Translations under genes and position numbers: made by a program
Notes under the pieces: model-generated
What the model was told of the DNA's origin: nothing
Databases searched by the model: none
What the model saw: the letters and a program-made list of their open reading frames with translations, nothing else
Assembly: GCF_029543085.1 (NCBI RefSeq)
Contig: NZ_CP119967.1
Coordinates: 5,420,501 to 5,484,500 of the forward strand
Direction: 5' to 3'
Length of the DNA stretch: 64,000 nucleotides
Source: Pseudomonas sp. A34-9
GTDB lineage: Bacteria > Pseudomonadota > Gammaproteobacteria > Pseudomonadales > Pseudomonadaceae
Part shown: in pieces, positions 45,035 to 45,966 of the stretch
How the letters are laid out: each line of letters starts with the position of its first letter
How positions within the stretch are numbered: position 1 is the stretch's first letter

Positions 45035-45063
45035 TTGTCCGTCGGACGTCCGCTCTCTAGCCT
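45035..45063 (+). promoter_or_regulatory. Candidate promoter of the DUF6124 leader
   Basis: TTGTCC and TAGCCT are 17 bp apart. The position would start transcription near 45070, so that the folded leader at 45092-45285 is transcribed complete. The hexamers are weak, so confidence is low. Confidence 0.3.
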
Positions 45064-45091
45064 GTGCTCGTCGCTGCCAATTCAGTGACCG

Positions 45092-45285
45092 GGCCTGGAA
45101 ACCCGTGTGGTTTGAGAGCGCACGAACGCCATTCATAACGTATCCTTGCGCACCTTCATGGTGTGCACTCCGTTATGGCGGCTGTGCGCGGGAGACCTTC
45201 GGGTCTGCCGGGGTCGCTCTCTGCCCGGGTTTCCAGCCTGCGTACAGCTGCCACCCATTCGCGTGGAAACCGAATGGGTCAGCTG
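45092..45285 (+). ncRNA. Structured RNA leader upstream of the DUF6124 gene
   Basis: Nested complementary segments predict a multi-helix RNA. P1 is CTGGAAACCCG (45095-45105) with CGGGTTTCCAG (45226-45236), 11 bp. P2 is GAGAGCG (45114-45120) with CGCTCTC (45215-45221). P3 is CATAACG (45134-45140) with CGTTATG (45171-45177), enclosing hairpin P4, GCGCACC-TTCAT-GGTGTGC (45148-45166, one G-U pair). P5 is AGACC-TTCG-GGTCT (45193-45206). P6 is CAGCTG-CC-ACCCATTCG / CGAATGGGT-CAGCTG (45245-45285). The 3' edge is 26 nt before the ATG, so P6 could affect the ribosome-binding site. No known riboswitch class is recognised. Confidence 0.65.
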
Positions 45286-45310
45286 CAACCTTTCTAGAGA
45301 GAGAAGCACC

Positions 45311-45679
45311 ATGAAAAAGCCAACACCCAATCCCCCCGAAACAAACACCGACCCAACTTCTCCTTACGCCTCCATCGACAGCAAAAAACTCCACGAAGCG
45401 GCCGACCGCGCCCTCGACCACTACCTCAAACCGGCCGCCCACCTTATGGCGTCCAATCGCCCCTACGAACCGATGTACCTCGCCAACCCGGTGTACGACA
45501 CCGAATCCCTGCTGGCCAATGCCAGCGAAACGTTGGGTTCGGTCACCGAGATGCTCAACAACTTCGCCGCCGTGCTCGATACCTCGCACCGCAAGACCGC
45601 GCTGGGCATCGCGCAAATCGTCATGCTGAGTGAGCTGGCGGTGAATCAGGCGCTGGATAACGTTCAGCCAACTGCGTAA
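45311..45679 (+). CDS. DUF6124 protein
   Basis: 122-residue protein with the family pattern PPETNTDPTSPYASIDSKKL, HEAADRALDHYL, YDTESLLANASETLGSV and KTALGIAQIVMLSELAVNQA. Such proteins are abundant, in several paralogues, in Pseudomonas; function is unknown. The predicted fold is mostly helical with an unstructured N-terminus and no signal peptide. The frame is open back to 45146 through the folded leader, but the ATG at 45311 with AGAGAGAAG upstream matches the family start. Confidence 0.85.
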   Translation: MKKPTPNPPETNTDPTSPYASIDSKKLHEAADRALDHYLKPAAHLMASNRPYEPMYLANPVYDTESLLANASETLGSVTEMLNNFAAVLDTSHRKTALGIAQIVMLSELAVNQALDNVQPTA

Positions 45680-45697
45680 TTACTGCGACGCATAAAA

Positions 45698-45726
45698 AAT
45701 CCGATGCTTTTAGGGGCATCGGATTT
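45698..45726 (+). terminator. Hairpin after the DUF6124 gene
   Basis: AAATCCGATGC and GCATCGGATTT form a perfect 11-bp stem around a 7-nt loop; an A-run precedes it and only a short T-rich segment follows. It is probably a terminator for the DUF6124 gene. Confidence 0.7.
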
Positions 45727-45768: not shown

Positions 45769-45966
45769 ATGGAGTGGCCCGTGAACATTCGTACAATTCA
45801 TAACGAAGCGGACTACCGTGCGGCGCTCAAAATCGTGTCTGCACTTTTCGACAGCGAGCCAGAACCTGGCTCTCCTGAAGGTTATTATTTCGACGAGTTG
45901 GTCACGCTCATCGAAACCTTTGAAGCAAATCTGCTCCAGCGCTCGCTGGAGAAATGCCCAGGTTGA
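45769..45966 (+). pseudogene. Truncated HigA-like antitoxin N-terminus
   Basis: The product (65 residues from ATG 45769, 61 from GTG 45781 with GGAG upstream) reads NIRTIHNEADYRAALKIVSALFDSEPEPGSPEGYYFDELVTLIETFEANL. This matches, from memory, the N-terminal segment of HigA-type antitoxins (HTEADYRAALKEVSALVDLDP), which normally continues into a helix-turn-helix domain. Here the frame ends in unrelated residues (LQRSLEKCPG), so the DNA-binding domain is missing. No HigB toxin is adjacent. It may be a remnant or a stand-alone small protein. Confidence 0.6.

Follow-up and report, generated by a model that had tools for sequence, protein, structure and literature searches.

The leader of a DUF6124 gene on the chromosome of Pseudomonas sp. 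A34-9 is a C4 antisense RNA (Rfam RF01695) equipped with an RF03163 target, and so belongs to a class that is already described. Phage P1 silences one of its own genes by a C4 antisense RNA. From sequence comparison and computed pairing, we consider it probable (roughly 0.85) that the locus is part of a chromosomal C4 antisense system in which each leader would silence mainly its own gene. This reading is preferred because both C4 and c4-a1b1 are matched in Rfam, the elements stand in the order known from P1, and pairing follows the code of the individual unit; because orthologues at the same site with different codes still pair, and GG and CC[AT]CC ends recur in all 41 units of the genome; and because the protein encoded behind C4 at unit 6303337+ is an anti-repressor of phage type, as is the P1 target.

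Results and discussion

Identification of the leader as C4

The features of the locus are collected in Table 1; the window is the whole stretch of 64,000 nt that was analysed. The window locus carries all six P1 pairing elements in the order a1, b1, C4 (b′, a′), a2, b2, and, as is characteristic of C4, b2 overlaps the downstream gene's ribosome-binding site. This and the other units of the genome match C4 of P1 and P7 in element order, stems, loops, the position of b2 near the start codon and RNase P-like ends. In the window the 5′ hairpin begins 7 nt past the end of the promoter-like pair, the same distance from the −10 element as in P1. The loose promoter-like pattern occurred in 37 of the 41 units, 34 times with a 17-nt spacer, compared with 1.9 of 41 expected from mononucleotide shuffles. 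A strict scan for sigma-70 promoters and terminators gave no match at the window leader, which speaks against the promoter-like pair.

Table 1 Features of the DUF6124 locus (window coordinates)
Feature	Position	Strand	Basis or remark
Promoter-like pair TTGTCC (45035-45040), 17 nt, TAGCCT (45058-45063)	45035..45063	+	loose pattern
c4-a1b1 target region	45057..45109	+	Rfam RF03163, 54.8 bits (cut-off 46.7)
5′ hairpin GTCGCTG/CAGTGAC	45070..45089	+	first stem of the RF03163 alignment
a1 target CTGGAAACCCG, within CGGG...CCCG hairpin	45095..45105	+	11-bp complement of a′
b1 target GAGAGCG	45114..45120	+	7-bp complement of b′
C4 antisense RNA	45171..45258	+	Rfam RF01695, 70.6 bits (cut-off 45)
b′ loop, hairpin loop of C4 stem 3	45215..45222	+	partner of b1 and b2
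a′ junction loop and adjoining stem bases, CGGGTTTCCAG	45226..45236	+	pairs with a1 (11 bp) and a2 (8 bp)
a2 target TGGAAACC	45264..45271	+	8-bp complement of a′
b2 target AGAGAG over Shine-Dalgarno-like GAGAG	45298..45303	+	6-bp complement of b′; ends 7 nt before ATG
DUF6124 gene (122 aa)	45311..45679	+	PF19619, E 6.5e-19

The supposition of the earlier note that the RNA had gone undescribed was not borne out. C4 of phages P1 and P7 dates from 1990 and is represented in Rfam by RF01695 and RF03163; C4, listed for Proteobacteria, and c4-a1b1 are table entries in Weinberg 2010 (PMC2864571), and phage sRNAs have been reviewed (PMC12197685). IsrK of prophage Gifsy-1 (RF01394; PMC4825925) resembles the a1b1 region; it scored 29.4 bits at the window against a cut-off of 50, and the window locus is not a member of isrK, while locus L182 scored 50.5 bits. 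Unlike C4 of P1 and P7, the units described here are chromosomal, number 41 copies and are followed by DUF6124 instead of icd-ant. Unlike in a P1-type immunity module, the next gene in the window, DUF6124, has no PHROG match and is not an anti-repressor operon (icd-ant). An arrangement of one C4 per DUF6124 gene with private codes was not found in searches of the main text of open-access journal papers, where the genes may bear other names. DUF6124 itself was absent from the papers searched; DUF3077 is mentioned in one unrelated paper on furfural in P. putida (PMC9630843).

The window DUF6124 gene is preceded by a gamma-glutamyltransferase gene and followed by a LysE-family gene, neither of them phage-type. 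A 65-aa ORF without Pfam family (45769-45966) lies between the DUF6124 and LysE-family genes. Directly 3′ of the DUF6124 stop codon, a perfect 11-bp inverted repeat (45697-45726) might serve as a terminator that lacks a long T run; the terminator scan was silent there.

C4 units in the genome

We detected 41 C4 matches above the cut-off and 38 DUF6124 matches in this genome, with a DUF6124 domain less than 500 nt downstream of 33 of the 41 C4 units. Matches to a1b1 numbered 37 (21 above the cut-off), and 36 of the C4s have one. All units show GG at the RNase P position and CC[AT]CC at the 3′ end, which are sequence signs of processing, and 657 of the 697 stem 1 cells of C4 are standard pairs (41 units, fixed offsets), in keeping with the three stems of C4. 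Five of the 38 DUF6124 genes are without a C4 of their own, which counts against the best explanation. Two of these (3815956- and 3658753-) are second genes behind another DUF6124, 6360553+ has retained an a1b1 match, and 4202498+ and 907107- have neither C4 nor a1b1. The retained match (L027, G000:C1:6360324-6360376; 46.2 bits, just below the cut-off) lies ahead of its DUF6124 gene with no C4 between, and is possibly a target bereft of its antisense RNA.

Eight C4s do not lead DUF6124. DUF3077 follows at 1439753- and 364807-, unit 5298990+ is followed by a short ORF and then DUF3077, unit 6303337+ leads a Bro-N protein matching anti-repressor PHROGs (with no match found in a search of viral contigs), and the remaining four lead small proteins without Pfam family. 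The short ORF at G000:C1:5298990 (L001) shares an AAAHRAMA motif with C4-led short ORFs from other genera of the order (L150, L157, L167); it occupies the place of icd in P1, and in L001 the DUF3077 gene lies behind it. The DUF6124 copies G000:C1:882374 and G000:C1:6097747 look damaged: in one the ORF no longer follows the family frame beyond about residue 53, and the other lacks an ATG at the customary spacing from C4. Some same-strand C4 units lie 1-3 kb apart (G000:C1:3452610/3453585, 2876677/2878955, 1890035/1892989), which suggests local duplication.

Private pairing codes

With G-U pairs counted, uninterrupted duplexes of 6 bp or longer can form between b′ and b1 in 39 of the 41 units, between b′ and b2 in 40, and between a′ and both a1 and a2 in all 41. 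In every unit an exact a′ 6-mer was complemented in both a1 and a2 (1000 shuffles: mean 4.1, maximum 10). An exact b′ 6-mer was complemented in b1 in 31 units (mean 2.7, maximum 8) and, in 34 units, in the 32-nt stretch that precedes the start codon (mean 3.5, maximum 10). At the same time the sequences are diverse: a′ occurs as 23 different heptamers and the b′ loop in 40 versions. Mean energies of own pairs for b′:b1, b′:b2, a′:a1 and a′:a2 amounted to −12.8, −14.1, −18.9 and −10.9 kcal/mol, as against −6.8, −8.1, −12.6 and −8.6 kcal/mol for foreign pairs, and the own mean was reached by none of 10,000 permutations for any of the four pairings. Like the shuffles behind the exact 6-mer counts in this and other genomes, these permutations treat the units as unrelated. 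Relatedness was controlled for, within this genome, by comparison with the nearest C4 that has another loop; here the own target won by 36:5, 38:2, 33:6 and 33:7, respectively (ties of 0, 1, 2 and 1 left out).

Most of the roughly 40 C4 leaders carry a pairing code of their own that fits the gene downstream, and a private a/b code per copy would mean that each locus mainly silences itself. The own pair ranked first in 16 of 41 cases for a′:a1 and in 17 of 41 for a2 and b2 combined. Several results count against the best explanation. For a′:a2 alone, the own pair ranked first in 1 of 41 (7 of 41 with a slightly shorter region). The b′:b2 duplex of the window is just 6 bp long and ranks 8th of 41 in energy; this rank and the count of 7 refer to a set in which the start codon is missing or wrong in 5298990+, 364807- and 6097747-. 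In only 7 of the 41 C4s is the own a2 + b2 target free of non-cognate rivals within 2 kcal/mol, and three C4s have 15, 16 and 19 such rivals. Insulation of the codes is therefore incomplete.

These near-equal non-cognate targets of some C4s would suit a system in which the RNAs chiefly regulate other genes in trans, a proposal made for Acinetobacter baumannii (PMC5320573). We regard this as unlikely, since among the targets of the 41 units the own b1 and the own b2 came first in 23 cases each, with a median rank of 1. The Group 1 C4-like sRNAs of A. baumannii are similar in that 21 mutually similar RNAs with a variable loop occur in one genome, and RNA-seq gave signs of processing at GGW (PMC5320573). 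Their upstream region has very limited similarity to P1/P7, and the section devoted to them describes no pairing of C4 and gene with matched targets; here, in contrast, matched targets flank C4 on both sides.

Competing folds and proposed mechanism

The earlier note had drawn several helices by eye and held their nested complementarity to be unlikely by chance. Indeed, RNAfold placed positions 45080-45300 at −111.1 kcal/mol, compared with −80.3 ± 4.4 in 200 dinucleotide shuffles (z = −6.98), none of which was as stable, and the drawn helices were recovered in place. The 11-bp helix corresponds to a1:a′, the 7-bp inner helix to b1:b′ (GAGAGCG with CGCTCTC, 45215-45221) and the UUCG-capped hairpin to C4 stem 2, while the bulged stem ahead of the ribosome-binding site spans 45245-45285 and has a2 at and beside its loop. 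The helices exist, but they do not make up one structure: the drawn fold and C4 stem 1 (17 bp, 45176-45192 with 45237-45253) are mutually exclusive, the latter competing with a1:a′ and b1:b′. Likewise, 45092-45285 is structured as proposed, but the element begins earlier, with the hairpin at 45070-45089 included and the promoter-like pair ahead of it.

We propose that a single transcript would start near 45070 and run into the DUF6124 gene. By analogy with P1 (PMC5320573), RNase P would cut it at GG 45177, an offset taken from the P1 record, and release a C4 RNA of about 77 nt. As judged by pairing potential, its a′ could then pair with a2 and its b′ with b2 over the ribosome-binding site, and DUF6124 would, as for the P1 target (PMC5320573), stay untranslated. 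In the uncut transcript, a1 and b1 are computed to pair with the same loops and break the C4 fold; b2 would be freed by this sequestration, giving an off/on switch.

At the window leader, the minimum of −115.8 kcal/mol contains a1:a′ and b1:b′, and forcing the C4 stem gave −102.2, a cost of 13.6 kcal/mol. Over the 41 units the median cost was 2.1 kcal/mol; pairing probability exceeded 0.5 for a1:a′ in 28 units, for b1:b′ in 24 and for the C4 stem in 13. In those 13 units the C4 stem dominates over the sequestered fold, which counts against the best explanation. Unlike the window copy, the P1 leader folds as C4 in the same computation. Given this behaviour of P1 and a cost of 13.6 versus a median of 2.1 kcal/mol, the window copy represents the sequestered end of the range. 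The stability of the sequestered fold here, together with the prevalence of a1:a′ pairing, is also what a cis-only attenuator would show, in which translation would be governed by a1/b1 pairing together with the stem ahead of the ribosome-binding site, free C4 being irrelevant. Such an attenuator seems quite improbable to us, given that nearly all copies retain both target sets on either side of C4, that the RNase P-like ends do not vary among the 41 units, and that a processed RNA arises from the P1 leader, which shares this layout (P1 record annotation; PMC5320573).

Different codes at one site

At the site of the window locus, codes differ among relatives and the pairing is retained. Locus L119, aligned to the window across both flanks (88%), has b′ GTTCTCCG and b2 CGGAGAAC where the window has CTCTCT and AGAGAG. 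The L119 allele is also present in the named relatives L199, L201, L202 and L203, and the window allele in L200. A third allele occurs in L198, whose protein is 98% identical: b′ is TTACTCTGT and b2 ACAGGGTAA, with one G-U pair, and the a code is altered jointly in a′, a1 and a2 (ATTTCCAG, CTGGAAAT and CTGGAAAT). The loops of these named relatives were read by eye. Flanks match the window on both sides, LysE gene included, in L200, L202 and L203; the upstream gene and sequence beyond LysE match in L198 and L201, and the downstream side only in L199. L120 and L121 are located at another site and were excluded. Whole-leader gene conversion from a paralogue would yield the same picture as stepwise change.

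Distribution in genomes, viruses and plasmids

Of 119 genomes of the genus, 110 contain C4 (109 above the cut-off, with scoring limited to 33 candidates per genome), 95 DUF6124 (up to 43 matches) and 93 DUF3077. In a sample of 145 genomes of the order, in which the genus was represented by one further genome and the family by three, C4 occurred in 20 and DUF6124 in the A34-9 genome only. Among the 30 DUF6124 loci that scored highest in other genomes of the genus (3-kb loci), C4 exceeded the cut-off in 19 (12/20 and 7/10); the 11 loci without it count against the best explanation. All ten DUF3077-centred loci scanned, out of 20 fetched (L175-L194), had C4 above the cut-off. In the best 80 of 226 named DUF6124 loci, C4 lay at most 420 nt upstream in 78, and 48-55 nt from the start codon in 76 of these 78. 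Together with the 33 of 41 units in this genome and the joint change of loops and targets, this supports the earlier suggestion of a structured RNA common to DUF6124 genes.

The exact 6-mer test was extended to C4 loci of other genomes. At 29 such loci of the genus, an exact a′ 6-mer was complemented upstream and in a2 in 28 (shuffled 7.9, maximum 14), and an exact b′ 6-mer in the b2 region in 27 (7.3, 14), upstream in 16 (5.1, 11) and in both in 14 (1.1, 6). At 26 C4 loci of the order outside the genus, the corresponding counts were 24 for a′ (2.7, 9) and 22 (3.6, 9), 22 (5.5, 12) and 18 (1.2, 7) for b′. Two loci on cut contigs had been left out of these sets: L087, whose register was lost, of 30 for the genus, and L166 of 27 for the order. 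The 78 named loci from the best 80 of 226, a weaker test, gave 64 for a′ (26.7, 38) and 46 (9.0, 19), 68 (23.8, 36) and 17 (2.0, 7) for b′; among them the b′ loop takes 39 forms and the a′ core 8.

The earlier proposal of a riboswitch or thermosensor, to which a stable structure adjoining the ribosome-binding site would be suited, is very improbable, as the Rfam match is C4, an antisense RNA with its own targets, and as 40 distinct b′ loops in 41 units with partners following are the opposite of a conserved ligand pocket. Equally remote is a dispersed DNA repeat with incidental RNA structure, which would account for the many copies and could correspond to P. fluorescens R178 (101 bp; 18, 28 and 9 copies; PMC2718517), given that loops and targets change in match, genes are linked and the distance to the start codon is nearly fixed in the named loci.

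Carriage of DUF6124 by phages or plasmids was considered and rejected, with one match in 50,697 phage records (at the record end) and none in 72,556 plasmids. DUF6124 was present in 4 viral contigs (close relatives only), each time at most 2.5 kb from a contig end. DUF3077 matched 4 viral contigs, three of the matches lying more than 3.5 kb from an end, and C4 was upstream in all eight viral DUF6124/DUF3077 loci. In viral contig L284:9-5535 the C4-DUF3077 cassette adjoins Abi_2, DUF2971 and helix-turn-helix genes, with a cytosine methylase gene nearby.

The DUF6124 protein and wider implications

An AlphaFold2 model of DUF6124 (26 sequences; mean pLDDT 75.4, pTM 0.47) contained a confident helical hairpin at residues 64-116. 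No match at E ≤ 0.001 was obtained against PDB and viral folds; assignment of a function from structure was dropped and we claim none.

Two large families of unknown function, DUF6124 and DUF3077, thereby gain a testable regulator, and 41 natural sense-antisense sets with jointly diverged codes in one genome form a resource for measuring antisense specificity. The surprise lies in scale and coding, with about 40 units in this genome and mostly private codes. A more far-reaching joint reading, which we offer tentatively and consider rather doubtful, is that dozens of bistable RNA switches, each with an address of its own, form a domesticated repertoire in pseudomonads and serve as RNA-addressed immunity or phage sensing. 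Each DUF6124 or DUF3077 gene would then be silenced by its own C4 code, codes within orthologous loci would change in concert, and viral C4-DUF3077 cassettes could silence or de-silence code-matched chromosomal copies. If the inferred silencing holds true, a phage immunity device would have been multiplied and adopted by chromosomes.
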